From Sinohyriopsis cumingii (Eukaryota; Mollusca; Bivalvia; Unionida; Unionidae), in assembly GCA_028554795.2 (NCBI GenBank), contig CM068839.1:84527540-84591539 (forward strand): a DNA stretch of 64,000 nucleotides. Reading direction: 5' to 3'. Positions 23,151-39,341 of the stretch are shown in pieces. Both the position numbers and the translations under genes were made by a program. Every line of letters begins with the position of its first letter. Position 1 is the first letter of the stretch. The notes under the pieces are model-generated. The model was not told where the DNA came from. It was given only the letters and a program-made list of their open reading frames with translations, and did no database searches.

Positions 23151-23189
23151 ATCTCTTTTCGAGAAATATGGCTGGCCCTGAAAAGGGCC
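23151..23189 (-). promoter_or_regulatory. Histone-type 3' stem-loop plus purine-rich element, left TIR
   Basis: On the minus strand the stem-loop GGCCCTTTTCAGGGCC (23174-23189) is preceded by AAA and followed by AGCCA and then TCTCGAAAAGAGAT (23151-23164). This has the stem, UUUC loop and downstream purine-rich element of metazoan replication-dependent histone mRNAs. It lies 24 nt after the stop codon of the minus-strand gene at 23214-23447. Confidence 0.85.
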
Positions 23190-23213
23190 TTTGGGTTTAT
23201 GTTAATGTATTCA

Positions 23214-23447
23214 TTAACATAAATGGTACCGCATTGGTCTTCTTCTTGTCCTTAGGCTACGTCTCACTGTTGGTCCGTAAATCAGCACTCTTTTCAGGCA
23301 TCCTTGTCTTTCTACGTAGATCCTACGTATCCACAGGCTGGTGTTTGTCCTGTGGACAACGGCCCACTTGGATCGGACATACATGGGTATGTCCGTCCGG
23401 AACATCATGGAAGACACAAGCGTAGAAGATTGCACATCGGTCCACAT
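23214..23447 (-). CDS. Small basic protein encoded in the left TIR
   Basis: A 77-residue protein of unknown function, rich in Arg and Tyr, with the core block RIYVERQGCLKRVL and a basic tail (RRSLRTRRRP). ATG at 23447 is chosen because a TATAAATA box lies 46-52 bp upstream (23493-23499, minus strand). The stop at 23214-23216 is followed 24 nt later by a histone-type stem-loop. The right TIR holds a diverged, 5'-truncated copy with the core conserved at protein level (39079-39224), which supports real coding. Its outward direction toward the element end is opposite to the main gene block. It is too short to assign a family. Confidence 0.6.
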   Translation of the reverse strand: MWTDVQSSTLVSSMMFRTDIPMYVRSKWAVVHRTNTSLWIRRIYVERQGCLKRVLIYGPTVRRSLRTRRRPMRYHLC

Positions 23448-23492
23448 CTTGAAGCGACGAGAACAGGTGAATCAATGCACTGAACTGCGCTT

Positions 23493-23499
23493 ATTTATA
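23493..23499 (-). promoter_or_regulatory. TATA box of the TIR gene
   Basis: CTATAAATAAG on the minus strand, about 50 bp before the ATG at 23447, at the same spacing as other TATA boxes of this element. It is back to back with the TATA at 23612. Confidence 0.7.
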
Positions 23500-23611
23500 G
23501 GTAGAGGCAGGATTGAAACGGATTGAGTTCATTCACCAATCCAAACACGCGTTACAAAATTCAGTCAGCCCGCATCCAATCCGAAGAGAGTAGTCTGTGA
23601 CGTCAGTTGGT

Positions 23612-23618
23612 CTATATA
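23612..23618 (+). promoter_or_regulatory. TATA box of the Q-rich gene
   Basis: CTATATAG, 55 bp upstream of the ATG at 23667. Together with 23493 it forms a divergent promoter of about 120 bp. Confidence 0.65.
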
Positions 23619-23666
23619 GATTCGCTAGCGCTTGTGTGCAGTCAATCTATGCGACAGTGATTCAAC

Positions 23667-24227
23667 ATGACGGAAACTCAGAAAACGATCCATTGGGGTG
23701 CACCAGCAGGGGAGACTGCCCAAGGGAACCCGGACTTACTTTCAGAAGAGGTACATTGGGATTTTGTGGATTTTCTTACCTCGCAAGAATTTGTTCCGGA
23801 ACCTTCGTTACCTTCTTCATTACCGCAAGTGGAGAATTTTAGACAGAGACAGAAAGAAGAATTGGAGAAAGTTATGCAACGACAAAAGGAAGCGGAACAA
23901 GCTTTTCTCCTACAGCAACAGCAACAGCAACAAGAAGAGGTAAGAAAAAAACAACAGCAACAACAGCAAGAAGAAGTAGCAGCAAAGAAACAAGAGGGTG
24001 AAAATCAAACGGCTACGGTACTGTTGGACATTTTAGCGGAGTTAAGAAGTCTGAAACAAATGTATCAGACTTCTTTATCACGACCGAAGAGAATACGACC
24101 TTCCCGAGCTAAACACGCCAACCCTGTGACTAAGCCTGTCGTACCACCCTTAGTGATTTCAACCCAATCATCAGAAGTAGGCCTTGGCCGTGGCAAAGGC
24201 TTAAGGCAGTTAAAGTTGATTGGTTAA
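23667..24227 (+). CDS. Gln-rich coiled-coil accessory protein with histone-type mRNA end
   Basis: 186 residues, no recognised family. The N-terminal 50 residues are acidic and aromatic (EEVHWDFVDFL). Residues 56-112 are a Gln/Glu/Lys coiled coil with two Gln runs, and residues 116-136 form a heptad-like Leu segment (LLDILAELRSLKQM). The C-terminus is basic and ends VGLGRGKGLRQLKLIG. The start is supported by a TATA box 55 bp upstream. The stop is followed 27 nt later by a canonical histone stem-loop (24255-24270). The next plus-strand gene is the polymerase, with the zinc-knuckle gene inserted between on the other strand. A regulatory or scaffold role is possible but unsupported. Confidence 0.75.
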   Translation: MTETQKTIHWGAPAGETAQGNPDLLSEEVHWDFVDFLTSQEFVPEPSLPSSLPQVENFRQRQKEELEKVMQRQKEAEQAFLLQQQQQQQEEVRKKQQQQQQEEVAAKKQEGENQTATVLLDILAELRSLKQMYQTSLSRPKRIRPSRAKHANPVTKPVVPPLVISTQSSEVGLGRGKGLRQLKLIG

Positions 24228-24254
24228 ACTCACTCCTACACGATAAAGAAAAAA

Positions 24255-24293
24255 GGCCCTTTTCAGGGCCACCCACATTTCTCGAAAAGAAAT
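24255..24293 (+). promoter_or_regulatory. Canonical histone mRNA 3' stem-loop and downstream element
   Basis: AAAA-GGCCCTTTTCAGGGCC-ACCCA at 24251-24275 matches the metazoan replication-dependent histone stem-loop in stem, UUUC loop, 5' A flank and ACCCA 3' flank. CTCGAAAAGAAAT at 24281-24293 resembles the U7-binding histone downstream element. An AATAAA at 24321-24326 could serve as a backup polyadenylation signal. It lies 27 nt after the stop at 24227. Confidence 0.9.
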
Positions 24294-24517
24294 ACAATTT
24301 CAATTTGCCAATAACTCAAAAATAAACCCACCCATTTTACCCTTATAGTACGTGTCTGTGTATGAGTGCGTGAGTGTAGCTTCTTATTTTAAAATCAAAA
24401 CTCAAAGACACTTACCTTATATTATTCATGTATTCTTTTATCCATTTTTTTACAATCCAATTCACAATTCACCACAGAACACTTTAAAAAGTTCGTACAC
24501 TTCTTCTTTTTCATTAT

Positions 24518-24988
24518 TTAGTCTCTCTGTTTTTTGAATTTCTTCACCGTTTTTTCCTCATTTTCTTCCCTTCTTCTTTTCTTCTCCTGTTTCTTTGCCT
24601 CTTTTAAATAGAACTGTCTTCTTTCTTCCTCTTCTTCCTCTGAAGAATCCCTCTCTTCTTCCGAAGAATCCCTCTCTTCTTTTGAAGAATCCTTCTTTTC
24701 TTCTGACTCCTCTTGTTTCTTTTTTGGGCAATCTGGAGACCAATGTCCTTTTTCTTTACAATAATAACAGGTATCTTGACTTTTGTCTTTTTTAGCCCCT
24801 GTTTTTGTTCTTTTTTGATGGTCTGGACACTCTGAAGACCAATGCCCTTTCTTCTGACAGATATAGCAAGTATCTTGACTTTTATCTCGAAAGGAAGGAG
24901 AGCAGTCCGTCGGCTGGTCTGAAGAGAATTTTCTAATGACCCCTCGCAAAGCTATGACGAAACGTTCCATCTGGGTAGTCTCTTCCAT
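24518..24988 (-). CDS. CCHC zinc-knuckle protein with charged tail
   Basis: 156 residues from ATG 24988, chosen over an upstream GTG frame extension because the TATA box (25043-25052, minus strand) is 55 bp upstream. Two Gag-type zinc knuckles are plain: CYICQKKGHWSSECP and CYYCKEKGHWSPDCP, each C-x2-C-x4-H-x4-C. The C-terminal half is alternating Glu/Ser and Lys/Arg (DSSEEERDSSEEE), ending in a basic NLS-like stretch. Such proteins bind single-stranded nucleic acid. It is transcribed divergently from the polymerase, which may suggest a replication or packaging role, but this is inference. A CCHC protein is not part of the standard Polinton core set. Confidence 0.8.
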   Translation of the reverse strand: MEETTQMERFVIALRGVIRKFSSDQPTDCSPSFRDKSQDTCYICQKKGHWSSECPDHQKRTKTGAKKDKSQDTCYYCKEKGHWSPDCPKKKQEESEEKKDSSKEERDSSEEERDSSEEEEEERRQFYLKEAKKQEKKRRREENEEKTVKKFKKQRD

Positions 24989-25042
24989 CGTTGTGCTCAG
25001 CTTGAGAGTGAAATGAATAGTGAAAGGACAAGACACACACCC

Positions 25043-25052
25043 TTTTTATATA
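25043..25052 (-). promoter_or_regulatory. TATA box of the zinc-knuckle gene
   Basis: GTATATAAAAAGG on the minus strand, 55 bp before the ATG at 24988. It lies less than 20 bp from the polymerase TATA box on the other strand. Confidence 0.7.
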
Positions 25053-25069
25053 CGCTGGTTTGCCAAGAC

Positions 25070-25076
25070 TATAAAT
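25070..25076 (+). promoter_or_regulatory. TATA box of the polymerase gene
   Basis: CTATAAATT, 54 bp upstream of ATG 25124. Together with the minus-strand box it makes a compact bidirectional promoter. Confidence 0.7.
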
Positions 25077-25123
25077 TAGTCTATGGTGTTTAAACTTGAG
25101 TCATTTGACGTTTTGCACTCAAG

Positions 25124-28100
25124 ATGAAACGATCCCATTCATTCGAGAAGAAAGAAGAAGAAGAAAGTAAGAGGCAGAAACGTGATCTATCGCCTCGTAC
25201 CAGGGCTGAAATCTTGGCACAGATTCATGCCAGTGATTTTGAAGAGGACATGAGTAAACCAGAATTTGAAACCTCTAAACCAAGTTCGTCACCCTTAGTC
25301 AACCCTGAAAAATACTATTCCATTCGAGAGACGGAAAAGCGCTCCTCTAGAAAATTTAGAACCACGGCTTACACCTACACGGTGAAGTTTAAAGATTTCA
25401 AGGCCGACGTACCCTTGGAGAAAGCAGAAGGGTTCATCACCGAGATGTGGGATTCTTTGCTCACCGCACTCAAGCGACAATGTCGACCCAAAGAAGACGA
25501 TCGCTTGACACTATCCATAGATCACGACGGTTTGAAATCCCCTGTTTGGATCGAGTTTAGCAGACCTGCAGAACTAACCCCTTCCAAAATCATGGACAAG
25601 ATTCAACACGTACAACAATCTAATGACCAGTTTGACATCACCGATGGTAAAGCCACACTGAAAATGGCCCACGTCTCTCTTCCTCAAGGGACAGGACGCA
25701 AAAAGATGTTATTGGTGAACGAGCTTCGCAGCATTAAGCGTAGTCTTGTCCAAATTCACAATCCTCATGACCAGATGTGTTTAGCCCGTGCCATCGTGGT
25801 GGGACGAACCTATGCCAACAAGAACGACACGACAGAATGGAAAAGAACCTGGGAGAACATTCGAAAATCGAACCGAACCAAACAACGAAACGAAGCAGAA
25901 CTCCTGTTGCAACAAGCTGGCCTGTCCAAAGACACACCCTGTGGCATTCCTGAGATGCAAAAATTGCAAGATGCCCTAGCTCCACGCTACACCTTGAAAG
26001 TACACCCTCAAGAAATGCGCGGGTCTCTGTTGTTTCGAGGCCAAGACTTTAAGGACGGAAAATACATTCATGTTTATCATCACGATGACCATTTCGATAC
26101 CATTACCAGTATCACCGGATTCCTGGGATACAGATATTACTGTGAGAAATGTGACTATGGTTATAATAATCGAGAGCAACACAAGCATTGTGGATGGAAA
26201 TGCCCAGGATGTTTGGCCTCTCCACCCTGTCTGAGTGAAGAACCAGTGCCTTTTTCGACTTGTCTGCGCACGTTTGTCAGCCCTACCTGTTACCAACAAC
26301 ATTTGAAAACACAAGGTTCACAGAAGAAATGTGCTTGTCAACTCCTGAGATTGTGCCCTACGTGTAGACAAGGCATACGTACCAACAATGCCAAGGCACA
26401 CGTATGTCGAGGAAAGAAAAAATGTCACATTTGTCACCACATCGTGGACTTGGAACACGAATGTTACGTGCAAAAATACCAACTCCCACCAGAGAAAGAG
26501 GACGGTCACAAGAAGAAAGGCAATTTCATCTTTTTCGATTTCGAATGCATGCAAGAGACTGGCATTCACATCCCTAATTTCTGCGTGGCTCATCGAGCGT
26601 GCGAGAAGTGCATTCAAGAACCTATCTTCAGTCATTGCCCTCACTGCAGCAAGATTCCTGGAGGACGTGAAAAAATCTTTCGGGGACCAAACACGTTAGC
26701 CGATTTTGCCCAATGGGTCTTAGACCCCATCGACAAGACGTGGAGCCAAGAGGACATCGAACGTTACGGAGATTGTCATCGTCATGCCACGGTGATGGCT
26801 CACAATTTCTCCGGATACGATGGACAGTTTCTTTTGAGGTACTATACGGAACATGGCACCGAACGTCCTAAAGTGATTTTGAACGGAGCCAAAATCATTT
26901 TCATGCAAGTGGGACAAGTACAGTTTAAGGATTCGATGAGTTACTTGGCCATGCCTTTGAGCCGAATGCCTAAAACGTTTGGAATGACAGAAATGGCTAA
27001 AGCGTACTTTCCACACTTTTTCAATACGGAAGCCAATCAACATGCTGTTCTACCCCATTTGCCTGAGGCTCACTATTACGACCCCGACAACATGGGTACC
27101 GAACAACGAGAAGCTTTCTACGCTTGGTACCAAGCTCACGCCTCGGACCCTTTCGACTTTCAGGAAGAAATGTTAAAGTATTGTCGTTCCGACGTGGACA
27201 TTTTACGGCGTTGCTGTGGAAAATTTCGAGAACTGTTCATGGAACACGGAGGGGTCGATCCTTTGAAAGAAGCTTGCACCATTGCCAAAGCGTGTTCCTT
27301 AGTGTACCGCCAACGATTCATGCCTGAAAACACCGTGGCTGTCATCAGTCCTCAAACGACCCACTATGTCAAGCGTCAATACTCGGTCAAAGCCCTACGT
27401 TGGTTACATTACTTGTGCGACAAGGAAGACAAATGGATTCAGCATGCCCGCAACGGAGGAGGCGAAAAGACCATCGGAACGTATTCGGTCGATGGCTGGG
27501 ACTTAGAAAACCCCAAGATCGTGTACGAGTTTAACGGTTGCTTATTTCACGGATGTCCCGTCTGTTACCCTGACCGTGGCACTAAAAATCAGTTTTTGCA
27601 ACGAACCATGGAAGACTTGTACCAGGACACTTGTCAGCGACGCCTAAAGTTAGAACAGCAAGGATACCAAGTGGTGGAAATGTGGGAACACGAGTACGAT
27701 CACCGTATGAAAACCGATCCCGAGTTTAAACGCCTCGTGGAAAGTTACCAGTTCATGGACCCGCTGAACCCGAGGGATAGTTTGTACGGAGGAAGGACCA
27801 ATGCCACCTGTTTGCTGTACCAAGCCGACGAAGAGAAAGGAGAAGAAATCAAATACTTGGACGTGTGTTCGCTGTATCCCTACGTGTGCAAATATTGTCG
27901 CTTTCCTGTAGGGCACCCGCAATTGTTCACGGAACACATCGACCTGAAAAACATTCGACAATACGAAGGCTTGATCAAGTGTAAAGTTTTGCCTCCCACG
28001 AACCTATACCATCCCGTCTTACCTCACCATTGTCAAGGCAAACTGATGTTTCCCTTGTGCCGTACTTGTGCCGAAACGTGCAACCAGGACCAACATTGCC

Positions 28101-29188
28101 ATCACAGCCAGGAAGAACGTGCCTTGACGGGAACCTGGGTCAGCGTGGAATTGTTCAAAGCTCTGGACATGGGATACCAACTGTTAGAAGTGTACGAAAT
28201 TTGCCACTTTCCCAAGACACAACAGTACCACAAGGGTGACCCTACTCAGAAAGGCATTTTCGCCGACTACGTGGATGCCTTTTTGAAACTGAAACAAGAA
28301 GCCAGCGGCTATCCTTCCTGGTGTCACACTCCCGAAGACCAAATACAATTCAAAGAGAAATACTACGCACAAGAAGGCATCTCTTTAGACCACATCGAAG
28401 AAAACGAAGGTAGGCGATCGTTTGCCAAAGTGATGTTAAATTGCTTGTGGGGTAAAATGGCACAACGACCGTGTTTACCCAAGACGGAATATTTGACAGA
28501 ACCTTCCCGCTACTTCCAGATGATTCACGACAAAACCAAATACATGAAACACGTGGACGTCGTTCGAGAGGATTTGATCTTGGTCAATTGCGAAGAAGAT
28601 CTGGACTTTGTACAAGACGACTCTTTTGGAAATGTCATCATTGCGGCTTACGTGACAGCTCATGCTCGCTTAAAATTGTACGAAGCTTTAGAACTGTTAG
28701 AAGAACGCGTCCTGTACTTTGACACGGACAGTTGCATTTACATCCATCACCCGATTCAACAGCACCCTGACATCGAAGGAGACCGTTTAGGAGCCTGGAC
28801 AGACGAGCATCCCGACGACAAGATTCTAAGTTTCGTCAGTGGCGGTCCCAAAAATTACGGCTACGAATACCGGGACAAACAAGGAGAAGTGCACACGACG
28901 TGCAAAGTGAAAGGACTGACTCTGAATCATCGTACCAGTCGAGTGGTCAACTTTGGGGTATTGAAAGAAGCCTTGCAATCGGGAGAGGATGGAAACTTTA
29001 AAGTGACCACCTATCAACCGAACAAGATTGTACGTTTACCCACTCACCACATCGTCAGTCGACCCTTGGAAAAAGTCTATCAAATTGTATACCAGAAGCG
29101 AGTGCGACTTCCCAATCACTTCACCTTACCGTACGGTCACGTCGGTATTGGTCTGTATATGAAAAGGAACCCTAGGCAAGATCGATAG
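25124..29188 (+). CDS. POLB: Protein-primed family B DNA polymerase
   Basis: 1354 residues, full length for Polinton pPolB, which copies the linear element from a terminal protein primer. A basic NLS-like N-terminus is followed by a Cys/His-rich region at 340-447. The proofreading exonuclease motifs are intact: ExoI FFDFECM (D472, E474), ExoII NFSGYDGQF (D566), ExoIII YCRSDVDIL (D690). The polymerase motifs are intact: A (LDVCSLYP, D913), B (KVMLNCLWGK, K1102) and C (YFDTDSC, D1200, D1202). The start follows a TATA box by 54 bp. The only AATAAA downstream is at 29611, past a broken small frame. I see no break in the frame, so it could be functional. Confidence 0.97.
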   Translation: MKRSHSFEKKEEEESKRQKRDLSPRTRAEILAQIHASDFEEDMSKPEFETSKPSSSPLVNPEKYYSIRETEKRSSRKFRTTAYTYTVKFKDFKADVPLEKAEGFITEMWDSLLTALKRQCRPKEDDRLTLSIDHDGLKSPVWIEFSRPAELTPSKIMDKIQHVQQSNDQFDITDGKATLKMAHVSLPQGTGRKKMLLVNELRSIKRSLVQIHNPHDQMCLARAIVVGRTYANKNDTTEWKRTWENIRKSNRTKQRNEAELLLQQAGLSKDTPCGIPEMQKLQDALAPRYTLKVHPQEMRGSLLFRGQDFKDGKYIHVYHHDDHFDTITSITGFLGYRYYCEKCDYGYNNREQHKHCGWKCPGCLASPPCLSEEPVPFSTCLRTFVSPTCYQQHLKTQGSQKKCACQLLRLCPTCRQGIRTNNAKAHVCRGKKKCHICHHIVDLEHECYVQKYQLPPEKEDGHKKKGNFIFFDFECMQETGIHIPNFCVAHRACEKCIQEPIFSHCPHCSKIPGGREKIFRGPNTLADFAQWVLDPIDKTWSQEDIERYGDCHRHATVMAHNFSGYDGQFLLRYYTEHGTERPKVILNGAKIIFMQVGQVQFKDSMSYLAMPLSRMPKTFGMTEMAKAYFPHFFNTEANQHAVLPHLPEAHYYDPDNMGTEQREAFYAWYQAHASDPFDFQEEMLKYCRSDVDILRRCCGKFRELFMEHGGVDPLKEACTIAKACSLVYRQRFMPENTVAVISPQTTHYVKRQYSVKALRWLHYLCDKEDKWIQHARNGGGEKTIGTYSVDGWDLENPKIVYEFNGCLFHGCPVCYPDRGTKNQFLQRTMEDLYQDTCQRRLKLEQQGYQVVEMWEHEYDHRMKTDPEFKRLVESYQFMDPLNPRDSLYGGRTNATCLLYQADEEKGEEIKYLDVCSLYPYVCKYCRFPVGHPQLFTEHIDLKNIRQYEGLIKCKVLPPTNLYHPVLPHHCQGKLMFPLCRTCAETCNQDQHCHHSQEERALTGTWVSVELFKALDMGYQLLEVYEICHFPKTQQYHKGDPTQKGIFADYVDAFLKLKQEASGYPSWCHTPEDQIQFKEKYYAQEGISLDHIEENEGRRSFAKVMLNCLWGKMAQRPCLPKTEYLTEPSRYFQMIHDKTKYMKHVDVVREDLILVNCEEDLDFVQDDSFGNVIIAAYVTAHARLKLYEALELLEERVLYFDTDSCIYIHHPIQQHPDIEGDRLGAWTDEHPDDKILSFVSGGPKNYGYEYRDKQGEVHTTCKVKGLTLNHRTSRVVNFGVLKEALQSGEDGNFKVTTYQPNKIVRLPTHHIVSRPLEKVYQIVYQKRVRLPNHFTLPYGHVGIGLYMKRNPRQDR

Positions 29189-29215
29189 TTCATTGTTCAT
29201 TGAAGTAACTTACCA

Positions 29216-29462
29216 TGTCGTTGACGAAGAAGAAACCAGATTGGTTAGGAGTCAAATGTTGGACATCACTGAGACCAGGGTTTTGAGGCTTGGACACAAG
29301 AGGTGACCCAGTATGCACGAGAGTTATTCAAGGAAAAAAGTTACTTTTCAACCTGTGTTAGTGACGGTGCCAGAAGAACCCGTCACCCAGGACAGGACTG
29401 TCGTGGACAGGCCTGAAAGACCCTTTCGGGAGGACACTTGTGTGACCTTACCCCTACTATAG
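29216..29462 (+). pseudogene. Broken small gene between polymerase and ATPase
   Basis: A short frame starts with ATG at 29216 and stops at about 29287. In another frame an ATG at 29313 opens 49 residues to the TAG at 29460-29462, with coding-like codon use (RKKVTFQPVLVTVPEEPV). The two pieces may be one gene split by a frameshift, or only the second may be real. The sequence shows no family motif and no catalytic His/Cys pattern of the Ulp1-like protease that some Polintons encode. Confidence 0.35.
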
Positions 29463-29610
29463 AACTGGTTAGAACTTTACCCAAAACATGTTGTACAGAC
29501 ACTTGTGTTTATTCCACGTTCATGGTTATCATGTGCCTTTTATTCTTGTACTTAAGCCTTTGGCTTTTATGCATTTTTGTCTTTCGTATTCATGTTTGAA
29601 AAAAACATTC

Positions 29611-29616
29611 AATAAA
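29611..29616 (+). terminator. AATAAA polyadenylation signal
   Basis: AATAAA after the polymerase and the broken frame, just upstream of the ATPase promoter. It is a conventional signal, unlike the histone-type ends of the accessory genes. Confidence 0.6.
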
Positions 29617-29631
29617 CGTGTTCTGAAAAAG

Positions 29632-29638
29632 TATATAA
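29632..29638 (+). promoter_or_regulatory. TATA box of the ATPase gene
   Basis: GTATATAAAC, 55 bp upstream of the ATG at 29687. Confidence 0.7.
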
Positions 29639-29686
29639 ACTCTTGTCTTGTTTGTTTTTCGTGTCACAAGTGACATTTGTCACACC

Positions 29687-30430
29687 ATGGCTACCTCTGC
29701 TGTCTCTGCTCCCTCTTCCTCTACTGTCAAAGTCATCGACGAACACTTAGATCGTGCCAGTTGGGAGGCTTTGTATCTTCGCCATCCCTTTAACATGCTC
29801 ATTGCTGGACCTAGCGGTTCAGGCAAAACCGAATTCGTCAAACGTTTGATCGAACATAAACATCATTTGATCGATCGACCCCCTCAACGAATCGTGTGGT
29901 GTTACAAAGAGTGGCAATCGGCGTACAGCCTCTTGCGAGAAAGTCAAGGCGATTCCATCGTGTTTGTGGAAGGCATTCCTAAAGAAGACGATGGCATCGT
30001 CTCTGACTCCCGTCTAACCCATTTGGTCATTTTCGACGACATGTTAGGAGAAGACGAAGAAGAAATTAAACTGTGGTTCACGCGCAAAGGGCATCACCGT
30101 AATGCCAGTGTCGTTTACATCACCCAAAATTTGTTTCAACAAAGTAAAGCCCATCGCACTATCAGTCTCAATGCGCATTACGTGGTCTTGTTTAAAAGCC
30201 CTCGAGATAAATCGCAAGTGCAAGTCTTAGCCAAACAGTTAGGAACGCCTTGGTTGACTCAGGCGTACGACGATGCCACTCAAACTCCACACGCCTATTT
30301 ACTCGTCGATTTGAAACCTACGACTCCCGAGGATTTGCGATTTCGTACCCACTTGTTTCACCACTGGTGCCAAGACGGAGGGCCTGTCCTGTACACGTCT
30401 CCGTCCTCGACTTCATTTCACTCCCCATAA
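29687..30430 (+). CDS. ATP: A32/FtsK-HerA-type genome packaging ATPase
   Basis: 247 residues from ATG 29687; the frame is open upstream but the TATA box and Kozak-like ACCATGG favour this start. Walker A GPSGSGKT is at 41-48 and Walker B HLVIFDD at about 112-118. A downstream VYITQN segment (143-148) resembles the sensor motif of this family. In Polintons and adintoviruses this ATPase is thought to pump the genome into capsids. The gene opens the plus-strand morphogenesis block and its stop is 7 bp from the next TATA box. Confidence 0.95.
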   Translation: MATSAVSAPSSSTVKVIDEHLDRASWEALYLRHPFNMLIAGPSGSGKTEFVKRLIEHKHHLIDRPPQRIVWCYKEWQSAYSLLRESQGDSIVFVEGIPKEDDGIVSDSRLTHLVIFDDMLGEDEEEIKLWFTRKGHHRNASVVYITQNLFQQSKAHRTISLNAHYVVLFKSPRDKSQVQVLAKQLGTPWLTQAYDDATQTPHAYLLVDLKPTTPEDLRFRTHLFHHWCQDGGPVLYTSPSSTSFHSP

Positions 30431-30436
30431 AAAATC

Positions 30437-30443
30437 TATAAAA
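30437..30443 (+). promoter_or_regulatory. TATA box after the ATPase gene
   Basis: CTATAAAAACC, 48 bp upstream of ATG 30485. Confidence 0.7.
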
Positions 30444-30484
30444 ACCTCAGACCCTTTTTCGTCTGTCTCACTCTCAGTGCGAAC

Positions 30485-31899: not shown

Positions 31900-32544
31900 A
31901 TGGAAGGACGAAAACTAGCTTTAGTACCTTACAAACGATGGATGGAATACCATCGGTGGCAAGAACAACACACCCCGCATTTACCTCCCAATCCCCATTT
32001 GAGCGAGATGTCCCAGTTACAACACGAACTGCAGTCCTTGATGGATCGCCAAGATTTGTCCGAAACAGAAAAATCGCAAAAGTACGGTCAACTCTTGCAA
32101 CGACTGCAACTCTTTCACCAGAAAGCTTTAGACGAAACAGCTCTACCCACTCTGAAAGATTTTAAGACCTTGATGAAAAGTCCAGCACCATCACCAGTAC
32201 CAGTACCAGTACCAGTACCACCAGTACCCGTGACCAAGACAGAAAAAGGAGAAGAAGAGGAAGGGTTTCAAACTCCACCAGAAAAAGTACGCAAGTTAAC
32301 AACACCACCTACCTCCAGAATTGGATGGATTAAAAAGATGATGGCCACCCCTTCTTCCTCACAAGAGAAAAAGAAAGTGAAGACAGAAGTGAAGACAGAA
32401 GTGAAACAAGAACCGATATCCCCCGCTCAGACATCCTTCTCCTCTTCGACACCTATTGCTGGCCGCACACGCAAAGCATTGCAATCCAAGAAAATACCCC
32501 AAGAGAAAAAGAGTAGCATCCTCCAAGAGTGGGTGTCTTATTAA
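31900..32544 (+). CDS. Conserved Polinton protein of unknown role
   Basis: 214 residues. The N-terminus (KLALVPYKRW) and a helical segment (residues about 35-75, LMDRQDLSETEKSQKYGQLL) match a pattern I recall from Polinton-like elements in other animals. The rest is low complexity: a PVPVPV run near 95-105, Glu/Lys stretches, KTEVKTEVK repeats and a basic Ser-rich tail. The gene sits between the core-like gene and the integrase, with a 22-bp gap to the latter. The role is unknown; a scaffold or virion component is possible. Confidence 0.7.
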   Translation: MEGRKLALVPYKRWMEYHRWQEQHTPHLPPNPHLSEMSQLQHELQSLMDRQDLSETEKSQKYGQLLQRLQLFHQKALDETALPTLKDFKTLMKSPAPSPVPVPVPVPPVPVTKTEKGEEEEGFQTPPEKVRKLTTPPTSRIGWIKKMMATPSSSQEKKKVKTEVKTEVKQEPISPAQTSFSSSTPIAGRTRKALQSKKIPQEKKSSILQEWVSY

Positions 32545-32566
32545 CACACCAACTAACACAAAAAAA

Positions 32567-33676
32567 ATGGAAAAAGTCTTAGCCAGCATTTACTACGATC
32601 CCTCCCATCCTGCAGGTTACGCAGGAGTTCAAAAATTGTATCGTGCTGCCAAAACGCGACTGAAAAGTCTCCGTTTACCTCAAGTGCAACGATGGTTACA
32701 AGAACAAGCTACCTACACTTTACACAAACCCATTCGACGCAAGTTTGCCAGAAGTCGCACCCGAGTGGAAGGCATCGATCATCAATGGCAAGCCGATTTA
32801 GCCGATGTCTCTCATTTGGCCAGCTACAATCGTGGCTACAAATATTTGTTTTGTGTCATCGACGTCTTTTCCAAATTTGCCTGGGTCGTGCCCTTGACTT
32901 CCAAATCGAGCAGCGAGTTAGTGCGAGCCCTGCAACGGGTGTTGAAACAAAGCGGTCGTCACCCTCTTCGATGGCAAACGGACAAAGGCACCGAATTTCT
33001 GAACCAAGCTTTCCAAAAAGAATTAAAGAAACGTGACATTCATTTTTTTACCACCGAGAATCCCGAAACCAAAACCAGCATCGTGGAACGTTTTCAACGC
33101 ACTTTGAAAGAACGCATGTGGAAATATTTTACGCATCACCACACTCTGAAGTACATCGACATCTTACCGCACCTGGTGCAAGCGTACAACCAATCTTACC
33201 ATCGAAGCATCGGACGTGCCCCGCAAGACGTGACTCCCGACAACGAAGTGTTGGTGTTTGAGCGTCTGTTTGGTACGTCCCCGACGAGGGCTGTCCCCGA
33301 GAAAAGTGGAATGTTGGCCGTAGGAGATTGGGTGCGCATTGGCAAAACCAAACGCACTTTCGACAAAGGTTACTTACCTAACTGGACGACCGAATTGTTT
33401 CGCGTCACTGGACGAGTGCATGGCCGTCATCCTGCCGTCTATAAATTGGAAGACATGAACGGAGAAGTGCTCAAAGGAACGTTTTATTTGCCCGAGTTAC
33501 AACGTGTGACCAAAAAAGAAGACGACGTGTACGACATCGAAAGCATTCTCGAACGCAGAACCCGTAAAGTGGGCAAACGACGTGTCAAAGAAGTCAAAGT
33601 ACGTTGGAAAGGATATCCACCCAGTTTCGATTCTTGGATCGACGCTTCGCAAGTCATCGACTATAAAAAGAAGTGA
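32567..33676 (+). CDS. INT: Retroviral-type DDE integrase with chromodomain
   Basis: 369 residues from ATG 32567. The RVE core has the catalytic triad D77 (WQADLADVS), D139 (QTDKGTEF) and E174 (SIVERFQRTLKE), the last two 35 residues apart. A C-terminal chromodomain covers about 322-366 (YDIESILE, VKVRWKGYPPSFDSW). It inserts the element and makes the 6-bp duplication seen here; the chromodomain may guide it to modified histones. No TATA box is found close upstream. All catalytic residues are present. Confidence 0.96.
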   Translation: MEKVLASIYYDPSHPAGYAGVQKLYRAAKTRLKSLRLPQVQRWLQEQATYTLHKPIRRKFARSRTRVEGIDHQWQADLADVSHLASYNRGYKYLFCVIDVFSKFAWVVPLTSKSSSELVRALQRVLKQSGRHPLRWQTDKGTEFLNQAFQKELKKRDIHFFTTENPETKTSIVERFQRTLKERMWKYFTHHHTLKYIDILPHLVQAYNQSYHRSIGRAPQDVTPDNEVLVFERLFGTSPTRAVPEKSGMLAVGDWVRIGKTKRTFDKGYLPNWTTELFRVTGRVHGRHPAVYKLEDMNGEVLKGTFYLPELQRVTKKEDDVYDIESILERRTRKVGKRRVKEVKVRWKGYPPSFDSWIDASQVIDYKKK

Positions 33677-33681
33677 CCATC

Positions 33682-34101
33682 ATGCCCTTTCACACAGCAG
33701 ACGCAGCTACGTCGACCACTCCTCCTTCACCTAGTTCTTCTGTGCAAGATTTACAAAAACAACCCTTGTGGATGTGGTGTGGAGAACGTCTGCCTAAAAC
33801 GCAAATCGTCTTTTTCTGCCAAATCTTCGTGGTGTATTGTGTCATCGGGGCAGCCATCGCCAATTTGAGTTTGCAACAAGGAGACAAACAATTGTGGACC
33901 ATTTTATTGAGCAGTTGCATCGGTTACCTGCTTCCTAATCCCTCCCTGAAATTCACCTCGAACGGGAACCCCGGGAACCTTGTGTCCAGTGCCAGTGCCA
34001 GTCACCACTTCAACCACAACCAGAACCCCATTTTAGACGGAGACACGCCTCTGACGTCCAGTAATATTCCCTCGGACAGCCACAGAACTCTGGAATTATG
34101 A
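33682..34101 (+). CDS. Two-TM Polinton membrane protein
   Basis: 139 residues from ATG 33682. A Ser/Thr/Pro-rich N-terminus is followed by a Trp-rich WMWCGERLPKT, a TM helix at 41-62 (IVFFCQIFVVYCVIGAA) and a second hydrophobic segment at 71-85 (LWTILLSSCIGYLLPNP). Similar proteins occur beside capsid genes in Polintons; the function is unknown. Its TGA overlaps the next ATG in an ATGA arrangement, suggesting coupled expression. A TATAAAA at 33662 is too close to the ATG to be a clear promoter for it. Confidence 0.8.
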   Translation: MPFHTADAATSTTPPSPSSSVQDLQKQPLWMWCGERLPKTQIVFFCQIFVVYCVIGAAIANLSLQQGDKQLWTILLSSCIGYLLPNPSLKFTSNGNPGNLVSSASASHHFNHNQNPILDGDTPLTSSNIPSDSHRTLEL

Positions 34102-35027
34102 GTCACCAAAACCAATTTTACTTAACCTTACCCAGTGACAGTTCCATGGAAGTGTTTCCCAAGAACACGTTGTGCTGTTACACGGCCAAATTACCTCAAG
34201 CCATCCAGTTAGATCACGAAGCCCATTGGGAAGTGGCTTTAGTAGAAATGATTCACCCGACCCAAGTCCTCAATGTCCTTCCCAATCAAAATTTTTTTGA
34301 TGTGGAAGTTCATGACGAGCAAATGCAACAGTGGATGGATAGCAATGTCAAATATGACAAGAAAACCCGTACACAAAATCAAAAGTACACCACCTATCAC
34401 TTGTTCATTCCCCCAGGCTATTATTTTAGTGGTCAACATTTGGTCAGCACCATAACCTCCAGGTTTAATGTCGTGTTTCTGAAAGCTTTGGAGCATGTCA
34501 ACAAAAGTGTCACCATGGAGTACCACAAAACAGCTCGTCGCTTCTTGATGAAATTTGAACGGAGTAAAATCATGTCCATTTTATTTTGTCCTGAATTGTT
34601 TGACATGTTGGGCGGAGACATGGACATGAGAAAGACCATGATCAAGAAAAACGAATTACCCATCGTTTACGACAACGAGTCTTTTAGCAAGTTATTTCGT
34701 GCCCCGGTAGAACTGAACCAAGGACTGAATTTGATGTTTGTGTACTCCGATGTGGTGGAGTATAACGTGGTGGGACACACCTCCGTACCGTTACTGCGTG
34801 TCATTCCTTTCAAAGTAGATTCTGCCACGGGCGCTGACGAGGAAGGTGGAAACACTTGCCACGTCCACCGCGAATTTGTACATCCTCACTATTTGCCTGT
34901 CAGTAAGTCGTATTTGGACACGGTCAACATTGCTATAAAAGGAGATCCGGGACAAAATATTCCATTCACCAAAGGAAAAGTCACGGTGAAACTCCATTTT
35001 CGAAAACGGTTCTCTCACGACTCGTAA
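34098..35027 (+). CDS. Penton-like minor capsid protein
   Basis: 309 residues beginning SHQNQFYLTLPSDSS, the typical start of the Polinton minor capsid (single jelly-roll, penton) family, followed by a WEVALVEM strand motif. In related elements this protein forms the fivefold vertices. It starts in a 4-bp overlap with the TM gene and precedes the PX-like gene by 7 bp. The frame is intact. The family call rests on the N-terminal signature and gene order; the distal part is less familiar. Confidence 0.8.
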   Translation: MSHQNQFYLTLPSDSSMEVFPKNTLCCYTAKLPQAIQLDHEAHWEVALVEMIHPTQVLNVLPNQNFFDVEVHDEQMQQWMDSNVKYDKKTRTQNQKYTTYHLFIPPGYYFSGQHLVSTITSRFNVVFLKALEHVNKSVTMEYHKTARRFLMKFERSKIMSILFCPELFDMLGGDMDMRKTMIKKNELPIVYDNESFSKLFRAPVELNQGLNLMFVYSDVVEYNVVGHTSVPLLRVIPFKVDSATGADEEGGNTCHVHREFVHPHYLPVSKSYLDTVNIAIKGDPGQNIPFTKGKVTVKLHFRKRFSHDS

Positions 35028-35034
35028 GTAAGTC

Positions 35035-35451
35035 ATGTATCTAGTGTACCGAGGGGTTGCTCGACAGCGAGGACACGGCTTAGGAGATATGTTAAAATCG
35101 GCCTTTCGTTCGGTGGCCCCGGTGTTGAAACCCATGGTGACACGCGGATTGCACGCCTTGAAAGATGCGGCACTGACGCAAGGCAAAGAATTTCTCCAAA
35201 ATGTCATCATCGACAAACAAAACCCTAAAGAAGCCTTCATGAGGGCAGGCAAAAATGTCTTGCTGCAAACGGGCAAAAACATTTTAGGACAACGAGAAAC
35301 ACTTATAAATGCCCTGCACGCTACCGAGTCAGGCATTCAGCAAGGACAAGGCAGAAAGAGACGACGAAGAAAACACCCTTTCACCAGACTTCAAGCGAGA
35401 AAGGCCAAGAAAAGAAGAACCGTTCGAGACTTAGACGTTTTCGATTATTGA
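35035..35451 (+). CDS. Basic PX/pVI-like minor virion protein
   Basis: 138 residues. It begins MYLVYRGVARQRGHGLGD, then a predicted amphipathic helical stretch (about 18-60), and ends in a strongly basic tail (GRKRRRRKHPF, RKAKKRRTVRDLDVFDY). Proteins of this layout in Polintons and adintoviruses are compared with adenovirus pVI/pX, membrane-active or core components. It sits between minor and major capsid genes. The start is an ATG 7 bp after the penton stop; a TATAAAAG at 34934 lies inside the penton gene about 100 bp upstream. Confidence 0.75.
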   Translation: MYLVYRGVARQRGHGLGDMLKSAFRSVAPVLKPMVTRGLHALKDAALTQGKEFLQNVIIDKQNPKEAFMRAGKNVLLQTGKNILGQRETLINALHATESGIQQGQGRKRRRRKHPFTRLQARKAKKRRTVRDLDVFDY

Positions 35452-35467
35452 GAAAAGAGACAAAAAA

Positions 35468-36040
35468 ATGATGCACCGAGAATCTTGCGCTTGTTCCAAG
35501 ACGGAACTGGACCTGTTTGCCATGCCCCCCACGATGATGACGATGCAAGAATCCCAGTGGGTGGAATTTCACCCCGTCTCCTCACTGACCGATTCCGCTC
35601 CCATCGAGTTTGAAATCAAAGGACAGCCCGAAGATTACATCGATCTGAATAGCAGTTACTTGTACCTGAAAGTCAAAATTCTAGATAAGACTGGAGGTGC
35701 TATAGACGATGAAGCAGTAGCTCCCGTCAACAATTTCATGCATTCCTTGTTCAGTGGAGTGGATTTGTACTTGAATAACAAACTGGTCAGTAGCAGCATG
35801 GATACTTACCCTTATCGTGCCTACCTGGAAAATCTCTTGACGTACGGAATAGATGCCAAGAACACTCATCTCAATGCCTGTGTGGTATGGGAAGCTGACG
35901 AACCTACGAAGTTTGAAATATTGGAAACTGATGAAAAGAAAGACAACAATGATGGATTTGTAGAACGAAGAAAGAGAATCACGGGAGCCGACACAAGTTT
36001 AGAACTGATGGATCGTTTGCATTTGGACATGTGGTTGTAA
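35468..36040 (+). CDS. MCP: Major capsid protein, N-terminal part, ended by an in-frame stop
   Basis: 190 residues. The block FEIKGQPEDYIDLNSSYLYL (47-66), HSLFSGVDLYLNNK (92-105) and MDTYPYRAYLENLLTYG (111-127) identifies the double jelly-roll major capsid (hexon-like) protein of Polintons. The frame meets TAA at 36038-36040, within a region that is normally internal to the family. The sequence after the stop stays in the same frame with clear capsid similarity, so the gene is interrupted by a single nonsense codon in this copy, unless it is a sequencing error or a read-through site. Confidence 0.9.
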   Translation: MMHRESCACSKTELDLFAMPPTMMTMQESQWVEFHPVSSLTDSAPIEFEIKGQPEDYIDLNSSYLYLKVKILDKTGGAIDDEAVAPVNNFMHSLFSGVDLYLNNKLVSSSMDTYPYRAYLENLLTYGIDAKNTHLNACVVWEADEPTKFEILETDEKKDNNDGFVERRKRITGADTSLELMDRLHLDMWL

Positions 36041-36781
36041 GAAAACTATTTGCTGAACGGGGTGGATGTCCGTCTGAGACTGAATCGTAGCAGTGCCGCT
36101 TTCCATTTGATGGCTGATAGTGACGGTTACAAAACCAAAATCCTAGAAGCCAGACTCTACGTACGCCGTGTGGAAGTGTTACCTAAAGTGGGAAACGACA
36201 TCAGTCAGACGTTGAGCAGAACGACCGCCAAGTATCCCATACGACGCGTGGAAGTGAAAACCTTCACCATTCCCAAGGGACAGCGATCCATGATCGAAGA
36301 TCATCTGTTCCAAGGGCAGTTACCCAAACGTTTGATCGTTGGTATCGTCGAGAATACAGCCTTCAACGGAGCTGCCGAAAAAAATCCTTTCTGCTTTCAA
36401 CACTTTGGCGTGTCCAAAATCGAAGTCAGTCGCGATGGCAAGACCTTGTGTACCCGACCTTTCGAACCTGACTTTACCAAGAAGAATTACTTGAGATCGT
36501 ACTTGTCCCTGTACGAAGCCACCGGACAGTTAGGAACCAATACCAGTCACGGTATTACGTACGAGGATTATGCAGGAGGCTACGCTTTGTGGGCTTTCGA
36601 TTTCACTCCAGACCAAGGCAGCGACGAGGGACATTTCCACCCTATAAAATCCGGCCAGATTCGTGTGGAAATTCAGTTTAAAGACCGAGACCCTGATGAA
36701 ACGGTGAACGTCATCCTGTATGCAGAATTCGATAATACCATAGAAATCAACAGTTTGAGAGAAGTCATCCTAGATTACTAG
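36041..36781 (+). pseudogene. MCP: Major capsid protein, C-terminal part after the stop
   Basis: About 246 codons continue the capsid frame: LNGVDVRLRLNRS near the start, EARLYVRRVEV, then a KSGQIRVEIQFKD block and a VILYAEFDNTIEI end typical of the second jelly roll. There is no ATG at the break, so it would not be made alone without reinitiation. No other lesion is visible. The stop at 36779-36781 is followed by a duplicated AATAAA region. Confidence 0.88.
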
Positions 36782-36844
36782 AAACCATGGAAGACTGTTA
36801 TCCCTCTTTACCTAGTGGAGAAACTTTTAGTGTTGCATTGTTGT

Positions 36845-37016
36845 TAAAAAATGTTAGAGTTGTTGTTGTTTAGTGTTAAGTGATTTTTGAATAAAAAATG
36901 TTGTGTTTTGAAAAAATTGTTTGATGTTATATTGTTGGATTATTGTTAAAAATGTTAGAGTTGTTGTTTAGTGTTAAGTGATTTTTGAATAAAAAATGTT
37001 GTGTTTTGAAAAAAAT
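36845..37016 (+). terminator. Duplicated polyadenylation region after the capsid gene
   Basis: A unit of about 98 bp is present nearly twice. Each copy carries GTTAGAGTTGTTG, TAGTGTTAAGTG and an AATAAA (36890-36895 and 36988-36993) followed by a GT-rich stretch. This is a conventional poly(A) signal, in contrast to the histone-type ends of the next two genes. Confidence 0.8.
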
Positions 37017-37120
37017 GCCTTTGTCTTTTGTTTAGCTATAAGAATGTTGGATTGATGCTCTTTCATTTCTTACTATCCCTCTCATGACACTCACTAAACG
37101 TTGCGACTCAAAAACCGTGT

Positions 37121-37150
37121 GGGGGATGTTTTCCTTCACGTCCGCGCTTT
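37121..37150 (+). promoter_or_regulatory. 30-bp upstream element, copy 1
   Basis: Identical to 37960-37989 over 30 bp, with the core TTTTCCTTCACGTCCGCGC. Both lie shortly upstream of an accessory gene start and about 10 bp before a TATA-like sequence. The CACGTCCGCGC part is CpG-rich in an AT-rich context, suggesting a transcription factor site. Confidence 0.7.
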
Positions 37151-37212
37151 GACTTTAAGAACCAGGTTGTTTCCAGTCTAACCATCCATTGTCGACTCAT
37201 CCTCCTAAGAAG

Positions 37213-37572
37213 ATGTGCTCCAAACTAGCTAAACTCAACGAAGCCTACGTGAATTTGCATAGGGTCAGACACAGTCTGATACCGAAGCCAGAAGAAATAG
37301 AGAATGTGAGAATGTTAAAAATCACTGAAGACCTGATAGAAGAGCTCTTCAGAGAAGAAATGAACAGGGAGAAAGAAGAATGGACAGAGAAGTACAGACT
37401 TCAGAGACAGCAGCAACAGCAGCAACAACAGCAGCAGCAGCAGCAACCTGAACCTGACAGAGGCTTTGTCGATTGCCGTATCGACACCAAAGAGTTCTTC
37501 TTTTCTTTCCGAAGAAGCAGACCTATCGCCAGAAAGTCTATCCTCAGAGGACATCGCATTCTTAGAAACTAA
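37213..37572 (+). CDS. Accessory Gln-rich protein, paralogue 1
   Basis: 119 residues from the first ATG (37213); the frame is open upstream without ATG. The N-terminus (CSKLAKLNEAYVNLHRVRHSL) resembles that of the protein at 38051. An acidic helix and a run of roughly 14 Gln (CAG/CAA) follow. The C-terminus is basic (FRRSRPIARKS). It is preceded by a 30-bp element shared with the next gene and an imperfect TATA (CTTTAAG). The stop is followed after 33 nt by a histone-type stem-loop. Function unknown. Confidence 0.65.
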   Translation: MCSKLAKLNEAYVNLHRVRHSLIPKPEEIENVRMLKITEDLIEELFREEMNREKEEWTEKYRLQRQQQQQQQQQQQQQPEPDRGFVDCRIDTKEFFFSFRRSRPIARKSILRGHRILRN

Positions 37573-37605
37573 AAAAAGAATGCCATAGCAAACAAAAAAA
37601 AAACC

Positions 37606-37637
37606 AGCCCTTTTCAGGGCTACCCCAATACTCTAGA
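37606..37637 (+). promoter_or_regulatory. Histone-type 3' stem-loop after paralogue 1
   Basis: AGCCCTTTTCAGGGCT (37606-37621) with flanks AAACC and ACCCC, then CTCTAGAAAAGA at 37631-37642. The outer stem pair is A-T instead of G-C. An AATAAA follows at 37667-37672. It is 33 nt downstream of the stop at 37572. Confidence 0.85.
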
Positions 37638-37679
37638 AAAGATGTGTGTAGGTAGAGTAGTGTGAAAATAAACACTAAC

Positions 37680-37959
37680 TCTTTTTTAAAAAATGTGAGG
37701 GTATGTGTTTGTGTGTTAGTAAGTGCTTAAGTAAGTTGGTATGAATAGTAGATTAAAATCATGTTGTTTTGGTGTTTGAGGTGTATATTTGGAGTTAGAT
37801 TGGATTGCTTTGCGTATGTGGATAGTCTATTGAAGTGATTTATAAAAAATTTTAAAATAGTGATGGGTAGCATAAAAAAGTGAGTGAGTGTTTCTTTTAG
37901 GTCCGCGCGTTGTTGTTTTTGGTCATGATGTAGGTAAGATCAATTTTATGTTTTTTTTA
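37680..37959. other. Spacer between accessory paralogues
   Basis: Mostly low-complexity T/G-rich sequence resembling the start of the minisatellite at 38578, with a GGTCCGCGCGTTG motif at 37901 that partly matches the duplicated upstream element. No gene. Confidence 0.5.
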
Positions 37960-37999
37960 GGGGGATGTTTTCCTTCACGTCCGCGCTTTCACTATAAAT
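37960..37999 (+). promoter_or_regulatory. 30-bp upstream element copy 2 and TATA box
   Basis: 37960-37989 is identical to 37121-37150. CTATAAATT at 37992-38000 is a TATA box, 58 bp before ATG 38051. Confidence 0.75.
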
Positions 38000-38050
38000 T
38001 GAAACTCGCTGGGCAGTCTAGCTACCCTTGTTGATTGATCAACACCAAAA

Positions 38051-38437
38051 ATGAACACGAGACTGTCTAAACTGTTGGAACTTCATGTGCATCTGGAATA
38101 TGCCAGGCGCCTGTTGAATGAACTGGCCGCGGAAGCCATTGTGGAGGAGGGAAGGATAAGAGAGGAGGAGGAAAGAAGAAAAAAAGAAGAGGAGGAGAGA
38201 AGATATAAAGAAGAAGAAGAAGAGGAAAGAAGATACAAAGAGGAGGAGAGAAGAAACAAAGAAGAGGAGGAGGTGAAGGAAAAGAAGAGAAGAAGAATAA
38301 ATTTCAGAATCCCAGAGAGCGAAAATTGGGATTCTGAAGCGACATATCCTGCCTCTGCTCTCTCCCCCAAAAAAGTAAAAAGTAACTGGGGGATAAGATG
38401 TGTATGTGGCGCCAGGCCTGGAAGGTGCCACCATTAA
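38051..38437 (+). CDS. Accessory Glu/Arg-rich coiled-coil protein, paralogue 2
   Basis: 128 residues. The N-terminus (NTRLSKLLELHVHLEYARRLLNEL) matches the pattern of the 37213 protein. Residues 35-80 are a Glu/Arg/Lys-rich coiled coil with RRYKEEE repeats. The C-terminus has a RINFRIPESENWDSEA segment and a short Cys pair. The TATA box is 58 bp upstream. A histone-type stem-loop begins 28 nt after the stop. Gene, promoter element and stem-loop are all duplicated together relative to 37121-37680. Function unknown. Confidence 0.65.
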   Translation: MNTRLSKLLELHVHLEYARRLLNELAAEAIVEEGRIREEEERRKKEEEERRYKEEEEEERRYKEEERRNKEEEEVKEKKRRRINFRIPESENWDSEATYPASALSPKKVKSNWGIRCVCGARPGRCHH

Positions 38438-38465
38438 CCAGGTGTCCATGAAGTTCCAAAAAAAC

Positions 38466-38502
38466 AGCCCTTTTCAGGGCTACCCAATACTCTAGAAAAG
38501 AA
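38466..38502 (+). promoter_or_regulatory. Histone-type 3' stem-loop after paralogue 2
   Basis: AAAAC-AGCCCTTTTCAGGGCT-ACCCA with the stem-loop at 38466-38481, then CTCTAGAAAAGAAAT at 38490-38504. No AATAAA is seen nearby; the equivalent position reads ATATAAA. Confidence 0.87.
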
Positions 38503-38577
38503 ATAACCATCAATTTGCCAATGTGTAGGTAGAGTAGTGTGAATATAAACACTAACTCTTTTTTAAGATAGTGTGAG

Positions 38578-39052
38578 GGTATGTGTTTGTGTGTTTGTGT
38601 TTGTGTGTTTGTGTTTGTACCCGCTCACGTACGATTGTGTGGATAGTAGATTATGGATTTGTTTATCGTTTCTTAGCGTATGTGTTTGTGTGTTTGTGTT
38701 TGTGTGTTTGTGTTTGTACCCGCTCACGTAAGATTGTGTGGATAGTAGATTATGGATTTGTTTATTGTTTCTTAGCGTATGTGTTTGTGTATTTGTGTTT
38801 GTGTGTTTGTGTTTGTGTGTTTGTGTTTGTACCCGCTCACGTACAATTGTGTGGATAGTAGATTATGGATTTGTTTATTGTTTCTTAGCGTATGTGTTTG
38901 TGTGTTTGTGTTTGTGTGTTTGTGTTTGTACCCGCTCACGTACGATTGTGTGGATAGTAGATTATGGATTTGTTTATTGTTTCTTAGCGTATGTGTTTGT
39001 GTATTTGTGTTTGTGTGTTTGTGTTTGTGTGTTTGTGTTTGTACCCGCTCAT
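38578..39052 (+). repeat. Minisatellite of about 100-115 bp, about 4.5 copies
   Basis: Each unit is a (TGTTTGTG)n tract, then TACCCGCTCACGTA, then GTGGATAGTAGATTATGGA and GTTTCTTAGC. Its long open frames on the plus strand are by-products of the TG repeat. It abuts the diverged inner part of the right TIR. Confidence 0.9.
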
Positions 39053-39078
39053 TGAGTCATCCACCCTTGTGTCTTCCA

Positions 39079-39224
39079 TGATGTTTAGGACGGACATGCT
39101 CATGTATGTCAGGTCCAAGTGGACTGTTGTTGATAGGACAGATACTAGTCAATGGATGAGGAGAGTTTACATAGAAAGACAAGGATGTCTCAAGAGGGTA
39201 CTCTTTGTATGGACCGGTAGTTAG
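39079..39224 (+). pseudogene. Truncated right-TIR copy of the small basic gene
   Basis: About 48 codons corresponding to the middle of the left-TIR protein (MYVRSKW, RRVYIERQGCLKRVL) are conserved, then the frame ends early at 39222-39224. The counterpart of the left TATA box is missing, replaced by the minisatellite. Distance to the stem-loop at 39301 is 76 nt instead of 24. Confidence 0.55.
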
Positions 39225-39300
39225 AAGGAGTTTAAGAAGAAGAAGAAGAAGATGTGACAGATGCCATCTATGTTAATATTAATATTAACATAAACCCAAA

Positions 39301-39341
39301 GGCCCTTTTCAGGGCCAGCCATATTTCTCGAAAAGAGATAG
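39301..39341 (+). promoter_or_regulatory. Histone-type 3' stem-loop plus purine-rich element, right TIR
   Basis: AAA-GGCCCTTTTCAGGGCC-AGCCA with the stem-loop at 39301-39316, then TCTCGAAAAGAGAT at 39327-39340. It is the mirror copy of the left-TIR signal and points outward to the right. Confidence 0.85.

Follow-up and report, generated by a model that had tools for sequence, protein, structure and literature searches.

A Polinton in the bivalve Sinohyriopsis cumingii carries, towards its ends, four small genes that probably form their mRNA 3' ends through the host's histone processing by SLBP and U7, a reading to which we give a probability of roughly 0.87 on sequence evidence. The window analysed here is a 64-kb stretch (C16:84527540-84591539) of the 2.9-Gb host genome, and the Polinton occupies positions 22856–39640 of it. 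The full cis-signal of a replication-dependent histone mRNA, a stem-loop followed by a purine-rich downstream element, stands directly after the stop codons of these genes, matches the ends of the host's own histone genes, and is conserved in the copies of the element that were opened and in one distant Polinton (L002). Since several of its small genes end in signals that animals normally reserve for histone mRNAs, the element probably borrows the histone mRNA machinery of its host.

Stem-loops and downstream elements in the window

The initial annotation had reported five histone-type 16-mers, at 23174 (minus strand), 24255, 37606, 38466 and 39301, and all five are exact at these positions. 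As independent sites they number only four, because 23174 and 39301 are two terminal-repeat copies of one site. The stem-loop GGCCCTTTTCAGGGCC is found on the minus strand at 23174–23189, 24 nt past the stop of a gene for a 77-aa arginine-rich protein (23214–23447, minus strand; two relatives, no Pfam match), and on the plus strand at 24255–24270, 27 nt past the stop of a gene for a 186-aa protein (23667–24227, plus strand; 20 relatives). The form AGCCCTTTTCAGGGCT is found twice on the plus strand, at 37606–37621, 33 nt past the stop of a gene for a 119-aa Q-rich protein (37213–37572, plus strand), and at 38466–38481, 28 nt past the stop of a gene for a 128-aa E/R/K-rich protein (38051–38437, plus strand). 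Upstream of the fifth hairpin (39301–39316, plus strand), the 77-aa gene is present as a disrupted copy. The spacing of 24–33 nt after the stops of separate small genes, as first described, agrees with these measurements, and so do the exact ACCCA flanks, which follow the stems at 24255 and 38466, and the GAAAAGA-type element downstream of each hairpin. This element, which resembles the histone downstream element (HDE), starts at the 14th or 15th nucleotide past the stem at all five sites (14th, 14th, 15th and 14th for the 77-, 186-, 119- and 128-aa genes, respectively). Its plus-strand copies lie at 24284–24290, at 37636–37642, where the surrounding CTCTAGAAAAGATGT is common to the host H2B gene, and at 38495–38501. 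Each independent hairpin is preceded by an intact small open reading frame (ORF), and these ORFs have no visible intron. No hairpin occurs within 500 nt of the stop of any of the 12 other ORFs listed. The proteins of the four hairpin genes gave no histone Pfam match, and no LxCxE motif was found in these genes.

Chance hairpins are ruled out by the shuffle counts. The pattern RGCCCTTTTCAGGGCY matches five times in the window, against a mean of 0.00 over 100 dinucleotide shuffles, and the looser consensus RGYYYTTHTHARRRCY, which we take to be the metazoan form of the histone stem-loop, recovers the same five sites in the window and no others (shuffle mean 0.12, largest 2). All five also match RF00032, the Rfam family of the histone 3' untranslated region (UTR) stem-loop, with E-values from 2.5e-9 to 1.2e-4; the scores are 35.6 bits at both 23174 and 39301, 41.2 at 24255, 28.7 at 37606 and 31.0 at 38466, and the family's gathering score of 34 is attained by three of the five. 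Rfam lists three further matches in the element, which fall below their cut-offs and have E-values of 0.11–0.25. At the AGCC...GGCT sites the outer G-C pair is replaced by A-U and the stem is preserved; across the six sites formed by the window and L002, standard pairing is found in 36/36 pair cells, and an adenine lies 3' of the stem at every site. The 5' flank is AA at 24255, 23174 and 39301, and AC at 38466 and in L002, as in four of the five host histone genes. A C beside the stem, present at 37606 and 38466, is also common to four of the five host histones. In the best fold, the purine element sits in a second, weaker hairpin at 24277–24293 and 23152–23164, and outside any second hairpin at the 37606 and 38466 sites.

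As the terminal repeats hold two of the five sites, the hairpins might instead act at the DNA level, in replication, integration or recombination, with their histone likeness arising by chance. We disfavour this explanation as most implausible, given that the other three are not in the terminal repeats, that every hairpin in the window is downstream of its gene and on the same strand, and that the arrangement is asymmetric, ACC or AGC and GAAAAGA invariably lying towards the transcript's 3' end.

CRE, TATA and CCAAT promoter motifs occur upstream of some of the hairpin genes, not all; they were scored without a control and are not used here. Between the divergently oriented 77- and 186-aa genes lies a short common region (23448–23666) that contains a single CRE along with TATA and CCAAT boxes, and CREs likewise lie upstream of the zinc-finger gene of L002. 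An identical 29-nt sequence, GGGGATGTTTTCCTTCACGTCCGCGCTTT, is found at 37122–37150 and 37961–37989, upstream of the 119- and 128-aa genes, and is perhaps part of a shared promoter.

Host histone genes, genomic copies and a distant relative

A histone repeat of the host at C14:13.10–13.12 Mb contains H1, H3, H4, H2B and H2A genes, named by reading the proteins. The H1 gene ends in GGTCCTTTTCAGGACC, 38 nt past its stop, the H3 and H4 genes both end in GGCCCTTTTTAGGGCC (28 and 27 nt), and the H2A gene ends in GGCCCTTTTAAGGGCC (35 nt), while the H2B gene ends, 34 nt past its stop, in GGCCCTTTTCAGGGCC, a 16-mer identical to that of the Polinton. The downstream element CTAGAAAAGA is found in H1, H3, H4 and H2B as well as in the 119- and 128-aa Polinton genes, and that of H2A differs from the other four; 15 nt of the downstream element are common to H2B and the 119-aa gene. 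Checking the host's own histone 3' ends, as had been suggested with the initial annotation, has therefore returned the same hairpin in the host genes and the same downstream element in four of the five. The 3' flank reads ACTT, ACAC, ACAA, ATAC and ACAC in the host histones and ACCC or AGCC in the window element, so the Polinton ends are not a recent copy. The octamer AATTTGCC follows the purine element at 24302–24309 and 38512–38519, and AATTTTGCC does so in the host H2A (L070); these could possibly provide further pairing with U7. Within the same histone repeat (L071:2003–4963) lies a 986-aa ORF that looks by eye like the protein of a long interspersed nuclear element.

Genome-wide, RGCCCTTTTCAGGGCYACCC has 33,189 exact sites (16,363 + 16,826), and the reversed pattern has none. 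With three such sites in the window copy, this number suggests, by extrapolation, copies of the Polinton family in the order of ten thousand. The first 100 sites in the list, which all lie close to the beginning of contig C1, comprise 40 of the GGCC type and 60 of the AGCC type; an AGCC site lies 13.3–18.1 kb away on the same strand for 30 of the 40 GGCC sites, and 22 AGCC pairs are spaced by 0.77–1.37 kb, matching the layout of the window. So large a number of sites, together with the match of the hairpin to host histones, would also suit a decoy, in which the hairpins are genuine SLBP or U7 ligands that chiefly titrate these factors and limit the host histone supply during replication of the element. 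This role is unlikely, as the hairpins keep a constant distance after the small ORFs of six clusters, as mRNA ends would show, and a coding gene before each hairpin would be needless.

A genome search with RF00032 gave at least 75 scored matches, and the loci opened were the 30 top-scoring and the six lowest-scoring (36 of 75), every one of which contains sequence resembling a gene of the window Polinton. The best 30 loci hold 60 hairpins with two mismatches or fewer (55 of them exact), half at the place picked by the search and 30 elsewhere; a purine element lies at most 29 nt from 60/60 of them, and ACCCA is present at 53/60. For the gene-by-gene counts in the 36 loci, matches stopping more than 12 residues short were dropped (6/27 for the 186-aa gene, 3/17 for the 128-aa gene, 7/10 for the zinc-knuckle gene, 7/7 for the polymerase and 1/1 for the integrase). 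A hairpin with at most two mismatches follows 9/9 readable ends of the 77-aa gene, 20/21 of the 186-aa gene and 14/14 of the 128-aa gene, compared with 0/3 for the zinc-knuckle gene that served as a control. When restricted to ends at which the hairpin was not the search's own pick, the counts are 4/4, 16/17 and 14/14, respectively. In a related listing, an ORF of at least 60 aa ends at most 120 nt upstream of the hairpin in 42 of 56 rows, and the ORFs upstream of hairpins form six clusters, one consisting of the 119-aa gene alone. Other copies (L013, L014, L026 and their relatives) carry further small hairpin genes (~132 aa, up to 204 aa) with basic C-termini.

Identity to the window was taken from 3'-end alignments of 6, 16 and 12 copies of the 77-, 186- and 128-aa genes. 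It is 1.00, 0.98 and 0.97 for the hairpin and 0.95, 0.98 and 0.99 for GAAAAGA, compared with 0.88, 0.91 and 0.81 for the last 60 coding nucleotides and 0.88, 0.77 and 0.73 for the stretch from the stop to 8 nt before the hairpin. With the hairpin-less copy L036 included (17 copies), the 186-aa gene gives 0.95 for the hairpin, 0.97 for GAAAAGA, 0.89 for coding and 0.76 for stop to hairpin; in the 128-aa gene the stretch past the downstream element is also well kept (0.91). Judged from these alignments, the coding ends are less conserved than the hairpin and downstream element that follow them.

L002 was picked by polymerase similarity alone, the hairpin playing no part, and is the sole relative found with the polymerase alignment in a prokaryote genome collection, where it forms an 8.9-kb contig in a Bacteroidia metagenome-assembled genome and is most likely misbinned. 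Its polymerase is 37% identical over the main segment, and integrase and capsid-like ORFs are also present. It has an RF00032 match (35.8 bits, E 1.3e-6) 28 nt past the stop of a C2H2 zinc-finger gene, with the purine element AAAAAAGA at +13 past the stem. The loop, TATC, agrees with the histone consensus as we take it to be. CCATTGTCC repeats adjoin this hairpin and resemble those at the ends of the window element. The motif, for which conservation in related elements had been put forward as a check, is hence kept in the opened copies and in one distant Polinton.

The 186- and 77-aa proteins have 22 relatives in the databases, two of which, P0033 and P0042, extend beyond the usual C-terminus. 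Compared by eye and in the same frame with the hairpin-to-HDE stretch of the window, their extensions agree in 10/14 and 7/13 residues, with changes at the hairpin edges; this does no more than suggest a translated hairpin-to-HDE stretch. In the viral contig collection, a stricter histone-hairpin pattern found no match, and none of seven viral contigs with a pattern-found histone-like 16-mer, taken as a control, reached RF00032. Viral contig scans with a 309-aa protein, the polymerase and 186-aa alignments and the L002 capsid-like ORF gave no useful relative; one of these scans had a single match, L001, 33% identical over 83 residues on a 359-kb contig.

Proposed host processing and its alternatives

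In histone mRNAs, as described in PMC5636114, SLBP binds the hairpin and U7 snRNP the HDE, and the cut falls in between, omitting polyadenylation and leaving a tail of 4–5 nt. In its minimal form, the SLBP ligand carries two A's on the 5' side of the stem and a single A on the 3' side (PMC10388802), and histone mRNAs bearing a hairpin of this type have been recorded in a bivalve (PMC6210712). We infer for the Polinton the same binding of SLBP and U7, the same cleavage, a lack of poly(A) and the timing that goes with them. Host RNA polymerase II would transcribe the four small genes, the hairpin would be bound by host SLBP, and U7 snRNP would pair with the GAAAAGA element directly downstream. 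A cut between the two, past the ACCCA-type flank, would yield an mRNA that lacks poly(A). If the analogy with histone mRNAs extends to timing, expression may be coupled to S phase, when the DNA of the element could replicate. The use of host histone processing, as proposed in the initial annotation, is supported by the match to host histones and by the motif kept in the copies and L002.

Several points weigh against this reading. Both AGCC...GGCT sites score below the RF00032 gathering score, the two nucleotides 5' of the stem at 37606 are CC and not AA, and covariation is seen at one pair only, whose score is attained by 34 of 500 shuffles. The 36 opened loci were all selected by the presence of a hairpin in the element, a choice biased towards complete ends, and the copies are not independent. 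For the 77-aa gene, 14 of 23 matches stopped more than 12 residues short and were left out of the counts; one copy of the 186-aa gene (L036) has no hairpin; and 14 of the 56 listed hairpins have no upstream ORF of the kind counted, as decayed copies might look. The distant Polintons examined amount to one, L002. RF00066 gave no match to a U7 snRNA in the host, and the exon-by-exon search with PF15247 gave none to SLBP; the control genomes likewise gave none for either, and the SLBP search is uninformative. Finally, AATAAA lies 93–94 nt past the stops of two of the four hairpin genes, making polyadenylation possible as a fallback; AATAAA or ATTAAA is found within 500 nt of only four of the 12 other ORFs, so poly(A) signals are no general feature of the other genes either.

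The same AATAAA signals, and the 15 nt common to H2B and the 119-aa gene, would fit a histone 3' UTR that was captured and is passively carried without present function, the transcripts ending by poly(A). Such passive carriage is highly unlikely, since the coding ends vary more than the hairpin and HDE, the 3' flank is unlike that of the host histones read, and the motif is kept behind a different gene in L002, despite a polymerase only 37% identical. We retain processing by host SLBP and U7 as the preferred reading.

A search pattern that combined known features of U7 with the downstream element matched two places in the host, and its reversed control matched one. Both candidates were rejected, having no Rfam match and no U7-like fold, and one of them (L078) was shown by blastn, at 70% over 308 nt, to be the back strand of a decayed Polinton copy.

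The element and its wider context

The element has the hallmarks of Polinton/Maverick elements, including a 6-bp target-site duplication (TTCACG, read in the sequence at 22850–22855 on the left and 39641–39646 on the right) and terminal inverted repeats at 22856–23429 and 39057–39640, of which 233 nt are fully complementary, followed by stretches of 93% and 78%. A Pfam scan identified, all on the plus strand, a family B DNA polymerase (PolB) of organellar/viral type (25124–29188; PF03175, 4.5e-42), an A32-type packaging ATPase (29687–30430; PF04665, 1.3e-7, exceeding the family cut-off), and a retroviral-type integrase (32567–33676; PF00665, 2.9e-14) with a chromodomain (PF00385). Among named sequences, the polymerase is closest to those of oysters (43% identical), and unnamed relatives reach 46%. 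A pair of plus-strand ORFs at 35468–36781 (35468–36040 and 36110–36781) is capsid-like by its likeness to an L002 ORF that is a putative capsid gene. Each of the two resembles one part of the one L002 ORF, which indicates that the gene is interrupted in the window copy. The Pfam scan of the element ORFs gave no telling match to a jelly-roll capsid, and no adenovirus-type protease was matched among the ORFs scanned. The CCHC zinc-knuckle gene used as a control (24518–24988, minus strand) has no stem-loop at its end. A minisatellite with 99-nt spacing (38472–39093) separates the last hairpin gene from the right terminal repeat. On the host side, at 62798–63523, two minus-strand ORFs have weak matches to GDNF/GAS1 domains, one barely over the cut-off.

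While PolB, ATPase, integrase, capsid-like ORFs, terminal repeats and duplication are shared with described Polintons, the terminal genes here differ in carrying histone-type 3' ends. To our knowledge, such 3' ends are considered unique to replication-dependent histone genes. The Polinton ends resemble that 3' end (RF00032 plus HDE) in having a stem of 6 bp with a loop of 4 nt, a flank that is mostly ACC, a purine element at a constant spacing, a stop codon close by and no visible intron, whereas the Polinton genes encode no recognisable histone, sit on a mobile element, and have an A-U outer pair at two window sites. Among the open-licence PubMed Central papers listed, we found no report of Polintons or mobile elements with a histone stem-loop, histone mRNA or SLBP. 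Loop 27 of Potato spindle tuber viroid (PMC6827988) has a UUUUCA loop identical to that of the histone hairpin, but it belongs to a plant RNA, has no extended stem, acts in replication and trafficking, and is carried in hosts for which no SLBP is reported. The 'Histoid' genes of adomaviruses and a tailtomavirus (PMC11071296) also show DNA viruses borrowing from histone biology, although what these genes encode are histone-like proteins and not an RNA 3' end.

If the reading is correct, the Polinton would be the first virus-like user of the SLBP/U7 pathway among the open-licence PubMed Central papers listed. It would hint at Polinton activity in S phase and could account for transcripts overlooked in poly(A)-selected RNA, and thousands of natural variants would be available for the study of SLBP and U7 tolerance. 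More tentatively, and with rather less than even confidence, this may be an old trait of animal Polintons, whose fast-changing terminal genes would use SLBP and U7 in S phase together with replication of the element. In this host, with copies in the order of ten thousand, most histone-type ends would be Polinton-borne. Active elements could then also compete with the host for SLBP and U7.

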